Assembly (NCBI GenBank): GCA_905181965.1
Contig: CAJIZY010000009.1
Span: 434,001 to 498,000 of the forward strand
Direction: 5' to 3'
Origin: Akkermansiaceae bacterium
GTDB taxonomy: Bacteria; Verrucomicrobiota; Verrucomicrobiia; Verrucomicrobiales; Akkermansiaceae
Length of the DNA: 64,000 bases
The notes below the pieces were generated by a model. That model saw nothing but the letters and a program-made list of their open reading frames with translations. It was not told where the DNA came from and made no database searches. Made by a program: the position numbers and the translations under genes. Below are positions 27,218 to 34,578 of the stretch, in pieces (within the stretch, counting starts at the first letter, position 1; the number at the start of each line of letters is the position of its first letter).

Positions 27218-27745
27218 ATGACCGGAGAGTTCCAACTCCGCGCCCCAAAGGCCGAAGACACCCAAAAACTCGCTTCCCTTGGAAGGGATACGTTCATCGA
27301 AACTTTTGGGCCGCTTTATCGTAAAGAAGACCTCGATCATTTTCTCGAGAAATCCTATTCCGATACCGTCATTGCGGCTGACCTTGCCGACCCAAGACTA
27401 GCCCATCGGGTCATCGAATTTCAAAACGAACTCATCGCCTTTATTAAAGTGGGTCCGGTTCACGTCCCCGCCAAATCTCCATCACCCGGTGCCGCCGAGA
27501 TTTGGCAAATCTACGTTCGACAATCTTTCCTCGGAAAAGGACTCGGTAAGCGCCTTATAAACTGGGCTTTGGATTATTTTGAATCAATCGAAGCCTCTGA
27601 AATTTATGTGAGCGTCTTTAGCGAAAACCCCAAAGCGATCCGTTTCTACGAGAAATACGGCTTCAAAAAAATCGACGAATACGACTTTTGGGTTGGCGAC
27701 CAGATCGACCTTGAATGGATCATGTGCAAATCTCCCATTGGGTAG
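27218..27745 (+). CDS. GNAT-family N-acetyltransferase
   Basis: 175 residues. Motif A, which binds the pyrophosphate of acetyl-CoA, reads IYVRQSFLGKGLGKRLINWA. The following FSENPKAIRFYEKYGFKKI is the typical motif B. The N-terminal part (DTFIETFGPLYRKEDLDHFLEKSY) resembles the spermidine/PaiA-like subgroup. Substrate is not predictable. It lies 12 bp after the DUF1080 gene on the same strand and may be cotranscribed. Confidence 0.85.
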   Translation: MTGEFQLRAPKAEDTQKLASLGRDTFIETFGPLYRKEDLDHFLEKSYSDTVIAADLADPRLAHRVIEFQNELIAFIKVGPVHVPAKSPSPGAAEIWQIYVRQSFLGKGLGKRLINWALDYFESIEASEIYVSVFSENPKAIRFYEKYGFKKIDEYDFWVGDQIDLEWIMCKSPIG

Positions 27746-28043
27746 AATGACTAAGAAACCTTCATTGTTTGAATTCTCCGCTCGCTGGATTGACGCGTGA
27801 AAAGCCAATTCTACTAATCCTCCTGCCAAAGGCAGAGATGATTTTTCGCGTTCCAGAGCAGGATCTTACTGTTTTTTTTAGGAGAAGACTGTTTTTGCAG
27901 ACCCCCATTTCGAAATCAATTTTGGCCCCGGAGAAGTTCGTTAAAATTTTCGGGAATAAATTACCTTTAGTAAAATCACCTTTTTTGTGTTTACCTCCTT
28001 ACTGCACGGAAGAAATTTTCCTCTGGGCAAAAAACCAACTAAA

Positions 28044-28367
28044 ATGAAAACCATTATTACCACGATTGCTGCAGTAGCAGCACTCACCGCTGGTGCCTTT
28101 GCGGCTCCTGTAGTCGTTGCTGCTGATGAACAGACCGTCACGCTCGATGTGACAGGCCTTAAATGAGCGGCTGGATGTCCTAAAAAAGTGCAGGCTGCAC
28201 TTAAGAGCGTCAAAGGAGTCACGAAAGCAACTGTCGGAAAAAAAGTTGGCACGAAAGCTGATACCGTCGTAACTGCTGCGAAATCAGTCAAAACCACTGA
28301 TCTGATTAAGGCCCTTAAAAAGAAAGGCTACACAGCTACCGAAAAAACCCAAAAGAAGAGCGCCTAG
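28044..28367 (+). CDS. secreted heavy-metal-associated (HMA) protein with in-frame TGA; candidate selenoprotein
   Basis: 107 codons including a TGA at codon 41 (28164-28166). It has a Sec signal peptide (about residues 1-21, ending AGAFAA), then TVTLDVTGLK, the TGA, AAGCPKKVQAALKSVKGVTKATV, and a C-terminal half with TTDLIKALKKKGYTATE. This is the beta-alpha-beta HMA fold, and the TGA stands at the first Cys of the metal motif (x-AAG-C). The frame is open and HMA-like on both sides, so the TGA is either selenocysteine, a nonsense mutation or a base-call error. A 7-bp hairpin follows at bacterial SECIS distance. The gene has its own terminator, and protein-like reading continues to the TAG. 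Confidence 0.65.
28186..28202 (+). promoter_or_regulatory. SECIS-like hairpin inside the HMA gene
   Basis: AAGTGCA pairs perfectly with TGCACTT around a GGC loop. The loop begins 26 nt after the TGA. Known bacterial SECIS elements have an apical loop roughly 16-37 nt downstream of UGA, a stem of at least four pairs and a G in the first two loop bases; all three hold. The hairpin could be coincidental because the codons also encode KVQAALK. Confidence 0.4.
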
Positions 28368-28392
28368 GTCGCGCCTCCAATTTTAAAATCAT

Positions 28393-28433
28393 GAAACCCC
28401 GCAACGGCATCCCGCCGTGCGGGGTTTCTTTTG
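28393..28433 (+). terminator. Rho-independent terminator after the HMA gene
   Basis: GAAACCCCGCA pairs with TGCGGGGTTTC, with CGGC/GCCG forming the upper stem, then TTTTG. It ends the HMA gene transcript before leuB. Confidence 0.9.
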
Positions 28434-28497
28434 TCAAGAAAACCGATTTTACTAACTTTAGAGTTTAGCATTTTCGATCTTCAACCTAGACAAGCCC

Positions 28498-29602
28498 ATG
28501 TCTCACACCATCACAGTTCTCCCCGGCGACGGGATCGGCCCCGAAGTCATGGACGTCGCCCTCGAAGTCCTCGATGCCGCTTCCGCCAAATTTGATTTTG
28601 AAATCTCGCGGTCCACTCATCTCGTGGGCGGAGCAGCTCTCGACGCTACTAATAATGAGACTCCCCTCCCAAAGGACACCATCGAAGCCAGCGAAAAGGC
28701 CGATGCGATTCTCTTCGGTTCAGTAGGCGGCCCTAAGTGGGAAGATCTTCCACCTCATATTCAGCCCGAACGCGGCGCCCTTCTTCCCTTACGGAAACAC
28801 TTTGGCCTCTTCGCCAATCTTCGCCCCGGCTCCTGCCTTCCCGCTTTGACCCACGCCTCGCCCGTAAAGAACGAGCTTATCCCCAATGGGTTCGACGTCC
28901 TCTGTGTTCGCGAGCTCACCGGTGGTATCTATTTCGGTGAACCAAAAGGGCGTGAAGAACGCGATGGCGAAGCTGTTGCCTTTGACACTATGGTCTACAA
29001 AAAATCAGAGATCGAAAACATCCTGCACGTCGCTTTTAAGGCCGCGATGGGGCGTGACAAACGGCTCACCTCGGTCGACAAAGCTAACGTCCTCGCAACT
29101 TCCGTCCTCTGGCGAGAGACTGCGAACGAAATTGCTACGCAGTATCCCGAGGTCACCCTGGATCATCTCTACGTAGATAATGCCGCAATGCAGATGGTAA
29201 AGCGCCCCGATTCCTTCGACGTCCTTGTCACCGAGAACCTCTTCGGCGACATCCTCTCCGACGCCGCCTCGGTGCTGCCGGGCTCGCTCGGCCTGATGCC
29301 CTCCGCCAGCCTCGGCAGAAGTAAAAGACAATGGGCTTTACTTCGGAATGTATGAACCGTCAGGTGGCTCTGCTCCAGATATCGCGGGCCAGGGAATCGC
29401 TAATCCCATCGCACAAATTCTCTCGGTTTCGATGATGCTTCGCTACTCGCTTGGCGAAACTATTGCAGCCGATGCCATCGATACCGCTGCGCAAAACGCC
29501 ATCGATTTGGGTCTTCGCACTGGTGATCTTTTTACCGAAAAAAATGGTGAAACCAGGGTGAACACCATTGAGATGGGTAACGCTATTCTTAAGGCACTTT
29601 AA
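28498..29602 (+). CDS. leuB: 3-isopropylmalate dehydrogenase, frameshifted
   Basis: Third step of leucine synthesis, NAD-dependent oxidation and decarboxylation. The first part (28498 to about 29319) has [58 protein letters not shown] and the metal Asp region [25 protein letters not shown]. After that the frame changes by +1 and continues [33 protein letters not shown] to 29602. A missing GC in GGCGCAGAA would explain it. If repaired, the length is about 368 residues, normal for LeuB. It is not linked to leuA, which lies 24 kb away. Confidence 0.92.
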
Positions 29603-30070: not shown

Positions 30071-33000
30071 ATGCGAAATTTACTCCTTCTCGTATTTCTG
30101 GCACTTCCTGCCACTGCAACCGATTTAATCTTCGACACCTTTGAATCTGACGGATTTGGCGAATGGCTCGTTGAAGGCGATGCATTCGGCAAAGCACCCA
30201 CCGCAGTCACCCCGGAGGGAGTTAACGGTAAAATTACCGGCTATTCTGGCCAATACTTCGTCAGCTCGGGTCACGGCGGTGACAAGCCCACCGGTTCCCT
30301 GACCTCCCCCGATTTTAAAATCTCTCAACCCTTCCTTGGCTTCATGATCGCCGGTGGAGGCCATAAGGGTAGAACGGCAGTTCAACTTCTCATCGGGGAT
30401 AAGATCGCTTTCGAGGCAACCGGACAGAACGACCTCAAAATGAAAAAAGTAGTTTGGTTACTTAGAGAAAATGGTGAAAATGGTAGACAAGAACCCGCAT
30501 TAAAGACGGACACCGCGGCGCTTGGGGCATCATCAATGCCGACCACTTCGTATTTTCAGACAACCAAAAGCCGTTTTTTCCAAAGCCCAAATATCGCGAA
30601 TCAAAGGCAAACAAAGATGGGCTGATCGCTTCTGGCATTCTTCCCGGCTTGACCATTCCAGAAGGCGCAGTTGCTAAACTCTTTGCTACAAATAAAACCC
30701 TTGGCGTCTTCTCTCCTACGGCCCTAACTGTTGACGAAAAAGGTCGCGTTTTTCTGGCTGAAACACACCGCTTCCGTTTCGGTGTTGAAGATAATCGGAG
30801 TCATCTTTACTGGCTCATGGATGATATTTCAGCGCAGACCACTGACGACCGAATCGCGATGCACGAAAAGTGGCAGGAGAAACTACCGCTCGAGAAACTC
30901 ACAACAGTTTCGGAAAAGATTCGTGTTCTCATCGACACCGATGGTGACGGCGTCGCTGATAAGTCTGAAATTTTCGCCGAGAAATTCAACGATCTTCTCG
31001 ATGGAACTGCTGCAGGAATCATGGCTTTCGAGGGGAAAATTTACTTCGCCTGTATTCCCAATATTTGGATGATTGAAGATGAAGATGGCGATTTGAAATC
31101 TGACAAGCGCCGTGTCCTCCAAGATGGTTTTGGAGTTCGTGTCTCCTTCTCAGGTCATGACTTAAATGGCTTCGCCCTTGGTCCCGACGGCCGTCTTTAT
31201 ACCACCATCGGGGATCGAGGATTTTCATTCACGACAAAAGAAGGGCTAGAATACAAATATCCTAACCAAGGTGCTATCCTGCGCTTCGAACCAGATGGTT
31301 CAAATATGGAAGTCGTCCACACCGGCCTTCGTAATCCCAAGGAAATTGCCTTATATCAATTTGGTACCGGCATCACGGTGGACAATAATTCTGATCAGGG
31401 TGACCGCGCTCGCGTCGTATTTATGCTCGAAGGAGCCGACTCTGGGTGGCGCATGGGTCACCAAGTTCTCCACTCTTTTCACGAAACCGCCGGAATCCCC
31501 AACAAACCCATCAACCAATGGATGGAGGAAAAAATGTGGGAACCTAAGAACGACAGCCAGCCTGGACACATTGTTCCTCCCATGCTCAACTTAACCTCCG
31601 GTCCTTCCGGCCTCGCGTTCTACCCAGGAACAGGATTCGGCCTTGGCTGTAAGAATCAATTTCTAATCTGCGACTATAAGGGTGGCGCCGCGGCCTCCGG
31701 AATCTGGAAATTCAGCATCAAAGATGAGGGTGCGGGATTTGCAGTCGATAATTCAGGTAAGTTCAACTGGGGCGTTGCCGCAACCGACATCGAGTGGGGC
31801 TACGATGGCAAACTCTATGTTTCGGATTTTGTCAGCGGCTGGCAGTCGCACAACGCTGGACGTGTTTACACACTTGAGGAACAGAATCCTGGAAAAACCG
31901 TTGCTGAATTCCTTGCCGAATTCGACTTCGCCACCGCTACTCCACGGAGCTTAAGTGGGCTTCTCGGACACGCAGACCAACGGATTAGACTTCGCGCCCA
32001 ACTTCAGCTTGCTTCCCTCCCAGAAGGACTGCCAATTCTCACCGCTGCTTCCAACCAAAAGATCAACTACCTTGAACGTCTTCATGGAATTTGGGGGCTT
32101 GGAATCATGGCTCGCAAAGGAAACACCATGGCGGCCAACATCCTCGCTCGGCAACTTCCCAATGACGATCCCCGCATAAGAGCACAAGTCACACAAATAC
32201 TAGGCGAAGCTCCCCTCGAGACTGCGGATATCCTGCTTCCAGTCCTGACGGATGGTTCCCCCCGAGTTCGTGCTCTCGCCGCAATTGCGGTCGGCCGCAT
32301 TGGAGATTCAGCCGCCCTCCCCAGCATTCTAGAAATGATCCAGTTTAATGGTAATAACGATCCGGTCTTGCGCCACTCAGGAGTCATGGCACTCGTCGGA
32401 ATAGCCAATGAACAGGAAATCGCTAATCTCATTAGCCATGAATCGGAAGCCGTGAGACATGCTGCGGTCATTGCTTTGAGAAGGAAGGGTAGCCCAAAGG
32501 TGATCTCTTTCCTCGGCGACACTAGCCTTCAGGTATCAAACGACGCGATCCGCGCTATCCATGACACCCAAATTGAAAAAGCTCGCCCGGTTCTTGCAGC
32601 ATTCCTTGATGACGAATCAATCGGCACTCCTCAACGGCCGGTCAGCCGTATGATTTTGCGCAGGCTGATTCACACCGCTTACCGTATTCCAAACGAGCAG
32701 AACCTTCTCAGAGTCATCAAAGCCGCGGTAAATCCACTCTTCCCGATTGAAGAGCGGAAAGAGGCGATGCGACTCCTTTCGATGTGGGAAAATCCTCATG
32801 TTGTTGACCAGTCCCTCGGATATCACTCACCTCTCTCTCCCCGCGATCCAGCCATCATGAAGAAGGTCCTAGGCAAGCACATCAGCCTCCTCTTAGATGG
32901 TGGCCAAGAAATCTTTGGGGACGCCATGAAGTTGGCTCTCAGATATGGTATCCAGCACGAAGGACTCGACTCCGGAAGTCTCACTCGCATTATTCGCGAT

Positions 33001-34578
33001 CACCAAACTGACGGAAAGACTCGAGCCGGTGCCCTTGATCTTTTCCTCAAGGGTAATCCTGAAAACGCCGAAGAAATCCTCAGTGAAGCTGCGCGTTCTA
33101 AAAATGAGGAACTGGCTGCAAAAGCTCTTCAGCTCGGCTCCGAACGAAACCCAGCCTCTACCCTCGCGGCTCTCAAAGGGGCCCTTAAGTCGGACCGCAT
33201 CTCCATGCGTCAAATGGCTTGGGGAATTATTGGCGAATTACCATCCGAGCATGCCGTTCCGTTAATTCGGGAAGGCCTTCTCGATCTCAGAGACGGAAAA
33301 GGCAATCGCGCAACTGGACTCGACCTTTTAATAGCTGCTCGGAAGCGTGAAGAGCAGTCCATCAAATCAGCTCTGAGCGATTATGAGGCATCACTGCCCA
33401 AAGACGATCCCCTCGCAGTCTGGCAGACTTCGCTCGCAGGAGGAGATGCCGGCCGTGGCTTCAAAGTCTTCCAAACACATGCCGCTGCCCAGTGTATGCG
33501 TTGTCATCGACACGAACCTGGCCACTCGGAGGGCGGAGAAGCCGGTCCTAACCTTATGGGAGTGGCTCTAAGGCAAGACGCCAATGGACTTCTTGAATCT
33601 CTCATCCTTCCTCACGCCGAAATTGCTGACGGCTTTGGAGTCGCCGAAGTGAAACTCAAAAATGGAACTAGCAAGAGCGGGACGATTGCAGCCCGCACCG
33701 ACGAATACCTTGATCTGAAGGAAAGTGAATCTGCGATCTGGCGAATTAAGTTATCAGACCTTGCTGAGAAGCCACGACCCGTCTCTGCCATGCCTGCCAT
33801 GGGGCAGATCCTTAATCCGTATGAGACCCGTGACATAATCGCCTGGCTTTTAACCCTGACCAAGCCCAACTCTCAAAAGCCTACAACTTATGAAGCCAAG
33901 GAACTTTCACTTGCCGACTCCAAAAAGATGGACGAAGAGACAAAAAAGGCCGAGTCTCCCGCCGATCTCAAAACCCAAACTGATCAAACTGTGAGCGAAA
34001 GTAACGAAATTGACCCCGCCGTAATGGAACTTGGCAAAGCACAATACAACCTGTGCCTTGGTTGCCACGGGCCGACTGGTCAAGGAATGGCCAATGTTGG
34101 CCCTCCTCTTGCAAAATCTGAATGGGTCGCGGGCCCTGTGGAAAACCTGATCGGAATTCAGCTTCGTGGGCTTCAGGGAGCAATCACCGTGAATGGCCAA
34201 GACTACCAGTTCGCCGCACCCATGGTTGCCATGGGGGCAGGACAGCCGGACGAAAACATTGCCGCGGTTCTGACCTATGTTCGTAATTCCTTCGGAAATA
34301 GCGCACCAGCAGTCACTCCAGAAATGGTTGTCCAATATAAGGAAAACAACAAAGACATCCTAAGCAAAGTTCCCCCACCGATGCTCAATGTCAAAGATCT
34401 TATTGATCCTCTTACTAAGCCAATCGGCGTGATCAGTGATGCCCCCGCTCCTGCGCTTCCTGAGATTCCTTCAAGTAGTCTCGGTGTATCGACGACTGGG
34501 ATGGTTATCTTCCTTCTTATCGCAGGTCTTACGGGTATCGGTCTCCTTCGTATGAAGACCATTAATAGGGAGGTTTAA
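30071..34578 (+). CDS. PVC-type membrane-bound dehydrogenase with HEAT repeats and two haem c sites, frameshifted
   Basis: About 1,500 codons. Signal peptide, then a GH32-C-like beta-sandwich (DTFESDGFGEWLVEGDAFG ... VSSGHGGDKPTGSLTSPDF) to about 30450. A short scrambled stretch (30450-30505) follows, after which the next frame continues GAWGIINADHFVFSD into the beta-propeller dehydrogenase domain (LAETHRFRFG, HTGLRNPKEIALYQFG). HEAT-like repeats run from about 31960 to 33370. Two cytochrome c motifs are CMRCH (near 33500) and CLGCH (near 34060). A C-terminal helix (VIFLLIAGLTGIGLLR) anchors it. The propeller probably oxidises a sugar or alcohol and passes electrons to the haems; the substrate is unknown. 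Start at 30071 gives the signal peptide. Confidence 0.85.

Follow-up and report, generated by a model that had tools for sequence, protein, structure and literature searches.

The explanation that best accounts for the observations as a whole, and one that we consider highly probable, is that a gene within the analyzed DNA of an Akkermansiaceae bacterium (64,000 nucleotides, hereafter referred to as the window) encodes a selenoprotein, in which a heavy-metal-associated (HMA) domain with a metal loop of the U-x-x-x-C type would play a metal-binding role. Residue 41 of this protein, specified by an in-frame TGA, is almost certainly selenocysteine (Sec), judging from the comparison of related sequences, and its incorporation would depend on SelB and on a hairpin located shortly downstream. 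The features of the region are as follows:

28044..28367, + strand: gene of a probable HMA-domain selenoprotein, product probably exported; 107 residues, with Sec as position 41 and a TAG stop
28044..28103, + strand: probable signal peptide, MKTIITTIAAVAALTAGAFA (read by eye; the orthologues have the same layout)
28140..28334, + strand: HMA domain (PF00403), residues 33-97, 24.5 bits; also indicated by the matches of alignment A1 and by the predicted fold
28164..28166, + strand: UGA, putative selenocysteine codon, in the metal motif (U-A-A-G-C) where the first Cys would otherwise stand; TGA in 20/20 distinct orthologous sequences
28176..28178, + strand: Cys45 codon, second residue of the metal motif, invariant in alignment A1
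28186..28202, + strand: putative bSECIS hairpin with a 7-bp stem and the triloop GGC (28193-28195), the loop lying 26 nt after the UGA
28409..28435, + strand: terminator-like hairpin with a T-rich tail (match to the consensus only; three in the region versus 1.1 expected)

When read from the ATG at 28044 through the TGA at 28164-28166 to the TAG at 28365-28367, the frame specifies 107 residues, which begin MKTIITTIAAVAALTAGAFAAPVVVAADEQTVTLDVTGLK-U-AAGCPKKVQAALKSVKG and continue to the stop. An earlier reading of this DNA, made from the letters alone (hereafter, the sequence-only reading), had placed the TGA exactly at the first Cys of the metal motif, where it indeed lies (U-A-A-G-C), and had recognized HMA-like sequence on both sides of it, which was borne out by the matches of alignment A1 and the predicted HMA fold, the PF00403 score of the window protein itself being just short of the gathering value (see below).

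A protein search of 58 related genomes returned a match in 31 of them. The TGA was present at the Cys position in all 20 full-length orthologues of the genus (the one from the window included), as well as in one orthologue from a sister genus; when identical stretches were removed, it was found in 20/20 distinct orthologous sequences, originating from 21 genomes. Full-length TGA orthologues occur in 20 of the 27 genomes of the genus, including the window genome, and a search of these 27 genomes revealed a family match in 24 (absent from G003, G007 and G011). Among the genus matches listed, 32 of 34 contained exactly one TGA: 28 of these were of the UxxxC type, one (G024) had a motif shorter by one codon (UAAC), two had no second Cys (L185 and L186), and one was a remnant with the TGA elsewhere (G022). 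The two that lacked a TGA (L187 and L188) correspond to longer proteins in which the Cys residues are arranged differently.

Across the order, 201 of 386 genomes gave a match; among the matches listed, TGA copies predominated at the top of the scores, and the weaker ones were for the most part stop-free, many of the latter being located in frames of 700-900 codons, as is the case for ATPases. Relatives from other genera and from a second family also have the TGA. In total, 56 U-x-x-x-C motifs, all of them followed at a constant distance by the hairpin core, were collected from 42 genomes (22 belonging to the genus and 20 to other genera), in a set whose loci were chosen for having the motif and whose locus-to-genome list was compiled by hand. 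In a sample of 387 genomes from across the phylum, of which 70 gave a match, a TGA was present at that place in none of the best 29 other loci. Homologues that carry C-x-x-x-C at the corresponding position were found in another class of the phylum (L163) and in G053 (L224), a genome in which the Cys homologue exists alongside Sec copies; the comparison of homologues proposed in the sequence-only reading therefore yielded the Cys/Sec pair, with UGA opposite Cys in L163 (aligned) and in L224. A scan of named genomes gave at least 11 loci, nine of them from Akkermansiaceae or Verrucomicrobiales records, and the relatives that bear names in GTDB are metagenome-assembled genomes of these same two groups. 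Two loci from the scan, L122 (Pseudorhodobacter) and L124 (Cypionkella), were read by eye as Cys-type ATPases and were rejected.

The comparison of the 20 same-genus orthologues indicates that the frame downstream of the TGA is under protein-level constraint. The dN/dS ratio amounted to 0.35 for the 36 nt that precede the TGA, 0.36 for the 66 nt immediately downstream of it and 0.46 for the 84 nt that follow the hairpin. The two other frames were interrupted by stops in 12/20 and 18/20 of these sequences, and the orthologues end with TAA or TAG.

The sequence-only reading had also described a hairpin with seven perfectly matched base pairs and the loop GGC, the latter starting 26 nt after the TGA, and this was found precisely as stated: AAGTGCA (28186-28192) and TGCACTT (28196-28202) enclose GGC (28193-28195). 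According to the rule given in PMC13188914, a bSECIS element has a loop of 3-9 nt, a stem of 4-16 bp and a G within the first two loop positions, the loop being placed 16-37 nt after the UGA; the window hairpin (a 3-nt loop with G in first position, 7 bp and 26 nt) falls within all of these limits. When both strands of the window are considered, 4 of the 2,493 TGA triplets are accompanied by a hairpin of such a shape (7 or more bp without mismatch, 3-nt loop, G at loop position 1 or 2, distance of 16-37 nt), one of the four being the same hairpin on the opposite strand. The 52-nt stretch folded no better than shuffled sequence (z -0.23). The significance of the hairpin derives from its conservation across relatives, since the shape in a single sequence is weak evidence. 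A search of Rfam with positions 27700-28600 gave three matches, all of them far under the gathering scores.

The hairpin codons (AAA GTG CAG GCT GCA CTT) showed zero synonymous variation in the 20 distinct orthologous sequences, in which a single change (GCT to GTT) was seen. Residues that never change were encoded by a single codon in 5/5 cases inside the hairpin, versus 1/8 outside (one-sided Fisher test, 6/1287 = 0.005, calculated by hand). In an alignment of 50 distinct sequences, which omits the shorter G024 copy, 96.6% of the cells were able to pair, a value reached by 0/500 shuffles. Compensatory double changes were observed in 14 cells at three pairs (shuffles 2.9 +/- 1.5; 14 cells reached in 0/500), and the covariation score was 0.196, versus 0.119 +/- 0.009 in the shuffles (0/500); the number of double-change pairs (3) was reached in 23/500 shuffles and that of further pair types (9) in 8/500. 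Because the rows of the alignment are related by descent, these shuffle numbers are not probabilities. The two outer stem pairs were open in 7 and 5 of the 50 sequences, the core and the loop were kept in 50/50, and the loop always had the form G, then G or T, then C, T or A (50/50). RNAalifold, given the alignment alone, returned exactly this stem and none other. Taken across the relatives, these sequence data indicate that the hairpin acts as a functional element of the RNA.

With regard to the decoding machinery, whose presence in the genome had been named in the sequence-only reading as a check, the window's own assembly contains selA (G000:C9:39365-40711; 486.3 bits, cut-off 267.9), selB (G000:C11:49838-51745; 309.6 bits, cut-off 242.25) and a Sec-type selD (G000:C22:7204-8130; 384.7 bits, cut-off 125). 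The remaining component, tRNA-Sec, was not found in this assembly (61.6% complete) by two family searches and one DNA search. The selD gene itself (L111:1531, + strand) contains a TGA in frame, downstream of which three hairpins were predicted, one of them comprising 8 pairs and the triloop GTT, with its loop 33 nt from the TGA; this gene is an internal positive control for Sec. Among the 58 relatives there are 25 carrier genomes, and in 19 of these a tRNA-Sec scored above the cut-off (60 candidates per genome were scored; none passed in G000, G001, G008, G014, G021 and G026). Each of the 19 was identified by ARAGORN as tRNA-SeC with the anticodon TCA, as were 30/30 of the loci tested from relatives. 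A selB above the cut-off was detected in 22/25 carriers (the exceptions being G005, G008 and G016), and in the 17 genus genomes searched for the other two genes, selA exceeded the cut-off in 16 and selD in 15.

The sequence-only reading had left room for a base error, i.e. a TGA produced by sequencing or assembly in place of TGT or TGC, and an apparent frameshift elsewhere in the window (in leuB) might be taken to favor it; however, independent assemblies share the TGA, which refutes this explanation and reduces its likelihood to practically nil: the codon is present in all of the distinct orthologous sequences, as well as in the other genera and the second family mentioned above. Only marginally less remote is the idea of a true stop, in which case the gene would be decayed or its product would be an exported peptide of 40 residues. 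Such decay is exemplified by G022, a member of the genus in which nothing but a degraded remnant is left at this position, but the constraint downstream of the TGA, the stops in the other frames, the TAA or TAG ends and the covarying hairpin all argue against it. The decoding of UGA as Cys or as another residue, by a suppressor tRNA or through a wider recoding of UGA, deserves slightly more weight, given that tRNA-Sec was not found in the window's own assembly, and is nevertheless improbable. Of the 25 open frames in the window that span 300 codons or more (not all of which need be genes), 10 terminate with UGA, which is therefore not reassigned wholesale; moreover, selA, selB and a Sec-type selD are present, the hairpin fits the bSECIS model, and the tRNA-SeC loci of the relatives carry the anticodon TCA. 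The selenocysteine proposed in the sequence-only reading is thus supported by the conservation of the TGA, the constraint following it, the covarying hairpin at a fixed distance and the presence of selA, selB and the Sec-type selD.

The Pfam HMA score of the window protein (24.5 bits) is just below the gathering value of PF00403 (24.8), and all 23 members of alignment A1 matched this profile at E <= 0.01 (best 1.2e-8). The nearest solved chains by sequence were CopA domains and MerP. An AlphaFold2 model of moderate quality, built from 10 sequences with Cys substituted for Sec, had a mean pLDDT of 68.6 (74-84 in the core blocks and low in the signal peptide) and showed the order strand-helix-strand-strand-helix-strand (beta-alpha-beta-beta-alpha-beta), which is that of HMA domains, with residue 41 located after strand 1 (29-37) and before helix 1 (45-54). 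Using this model, Foldseek retrieved 16 PDB chains at E <= 0.001; the top match was MerP 1osd (E 2.2e-5, TM 0.87 by target length, 38% identity), and those that followed included copper and zinc HMA domains. The predicted fold of the window protein is therefore that of an HMA domain, nearest to MerP. The metal loop, UxxxC, has one more residue than CxxC, the form seen in most relatives of the phylum-wide set.

Several variants of the gene were encountered among the relatives. In G022 (L164; contig G022:C27, - strand, between a GNAT gene and leuB) there is only a remnant of it in a genome with tRNA-Sec, and the selenoprotein has been lost there while at least part of the machinery has been retained. 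Two loci, L185 (G012:C191) and L186 (G026:C134, - strand), are HMA-like, with an in-frame UGA in GGGU and without the second Cys. Their 6-bp stems differ, yet both pair (AAGGCC/GGCCTT and AAAGCC/GGCTTT, with the loops CGTGC and CGTGT, respectively), and together they perhaps represent a further Sec branch. Members with two Sec residues were identified in G053 (L160; 3849 and 4047) and G637 (L228; 889 and 670, - strand), each containing two HMA domains with a UGA and a hairpin apiece. At L229 (516 and 870) and L232 (309 and 684), paired HMA-Sec copies lie close by and were read as adjacent genes. Several relatives appeared lipoprotein-like when inspected by eye, with a Cys after a hydrophobic start.

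The terminator-like site at 28409..28435, downstream of the gene, suggests that the transcript ends there. Among the 20 orthologue loci of the genus, 12 have leuB downstream of the HMA-Sec gene (about 1 kb away in L014); it was not seen in the other eight, for which the stretches examined were of up to approximately 1.5 kb (only 243 nt in the case of L016). In the window, leuB (28498-29602) is represented by two ORFs owing to an apparent frameshift at about 29300-29350, and the corresponding gene of a relative (L114) is a single ORF of 367 aa; the break is either an assembly error or real. Further downstream (30649-34578), the window encodes a 1309-aa protein that combines DUF7133 and HEAT repeats with a cytochrome c domain. 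When an operon role was sought among ten neighbors around four relatives, those that could be named were unrelated to metals, and there were no redox partners among the neighbors scanned; the genomic context yielded no sign of an operon. A plasmid search gave zero matches.

We propose the following mechanism. SelA would make Sec-tRNA using selenophosphate supplied by SelD, and SelB, positioned on the hairpin 26 nt after the UGA, would bring this Sec-tRNA to the UGA. The exported product would fold as a single HMA domain, in which the loop U-x-x-x-C replaces the usual C-x-x-C, and the selenolate of Sec41 together with Cys45 may serve as tight periplasmic ligands of a soft metal ion, for example Cu(I), Ag(I) or Hg(II). 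We lean, by a small degree, towards a periplasmic buffer or scavenger of soft metals over a chaperone for an HMA-type ATPase, because most carrier genomes show no such ATPase. In the genus, whose genomes are incomplete, a P1B ATPase (TIGR01525) exceeded the cut-off in 5/27 genomes, among them 3 of the 20 orthologue carriers (G004, G021 and G026; the match in G006 was a fragment), and of the 12 orthologue carriers with a completeness of 90% or more, 8 gave no match; in control genomes, the same search gave 14/14 matches, 13 of them over the cut-off. The role of a chaperone for a P1B ATPase is thus made unlikely by the occurrence of the ATPase in few carriers. Likewise, the role of MerP in a mer system is made unlikely by the result for MerT, which was detected in 0/27 genus genomes by a search that had no positive control.

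A selenoprotein engaged in thiol/selenol redox work, with a selenenylsulfide formed across U-x-x-x-C in place of metal binding, is the alternative to which we assign an appreciable, if minor, share of the probability. The spacing of this motif is unlike the CxxC of most HMA relatives, the HMA-type ATPase partner is missing from most carriers, and the selenoprotein families of the GOS set are, according to PMC2398784, mostly thiol oxidoreductase-like. On the other hand, both the sequence and the predicted fold are those of HMA metal domains, and the neighbors that were scanned are not redox partners. We therefore retain metal binding as the preferred role. A broader and distinctly speculative scenario, to which we attach somewhat less weight than to the redox alternative, is that a lineage of Verrucomicrobiales might have built from HMA domains an exported, selenium-based layer of metal (or selenium) handling that is independent of HMA-type ATPases and exists in secreted, lipoprotein, two-Sec tandem and partner-Cys-less versions, serving, through its selenolate ligands, as a periplasmic Hg(II)/Cu(I) trap or else as a selenium store of the periplasm.

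Many known bacterial selenoproteins are redox proteins. A widespread family of exported metal domains that keeps Sec where its relatives have Cys would allow the question of why selenium should be used as a metal ligand to be tested directly, on a mature protein of approximately 85 residues. Because TGA counts as a stop for standard gene callers, genes of this type are likely to be annotated as two short ORFs or missed. The uniform SECIS hairpin of the family could serve as a search pattern for more selenoproteins in Verrucomicrobiales.

Among the matches listed in our search of published titles and the starts of abstracts, this family was not described; supplements and most subscription papers lay outside the search, and an earlier description may exist there. 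The terms "UxxxC", "PF00403" and "HMA" are absent from the main text of PMC13188914, and "Verrucomicrob" is absent from the main texts of PMC13188914, PMC12013277, PMC9312934, PMC2398784 and PMC5029168. Selenoproteins of the HMA type are already known; of the probably exported UxxxC family of Verrucomicrobiales we found no description.

Mercuric transport and ATPase selenoproteins are listed in PMC9312934 and PMC2398784. The latter includes a "Mercuric transport protein MerP" among the selenoproteins (2 sequences, motif not given). MerP (TIGR02052) is, like the window protein, an exported single HMA domain, and it aligned with the latter over nearly its whole length (36.2 bits); however, this score is below the cut-off (92.55), and the window protein has UxxxC. 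A table in PMC13188914 contains a cation-transporting ATPase E1-E2 selenoprotein with UxxC, whose Sec is probably situated in an HMA metal motif; this is a large membrane ATPase, in contrast to the free domain with UxxxC found in the window. The same table gives NF041115 as a "putative mercuric reductase". This UxxU metal-binding (seleno)protein, which was the second NCBIfam match by E-value, is likewise HMA-like with Sec in the metal motif, but the window protein scored far under its cut-off (38.8 bits versus 95), has one Sec in UxxxC where NF041115 has two in UxxU, and carries a signal peptide part that is absent from the 74 positions of the profile. The MerT/CopZ fusion-like heavy metal transport selenoprotein (NF045683) shares with the window protein a CopZ-like HMA part in a selenoprotein, whereas the window protein (24.3 bits, cut-off 375) is a free domain of 107 residues. 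Finally, the CopZ family metallochaperone NF047957 was matched above its cut-off of 85 by the two-domain relative L160 of G053 (103 bits, summed over two domains), whereas the window protein, which scored 36.2 bits, differs in being probably exported and Sec-bearing.
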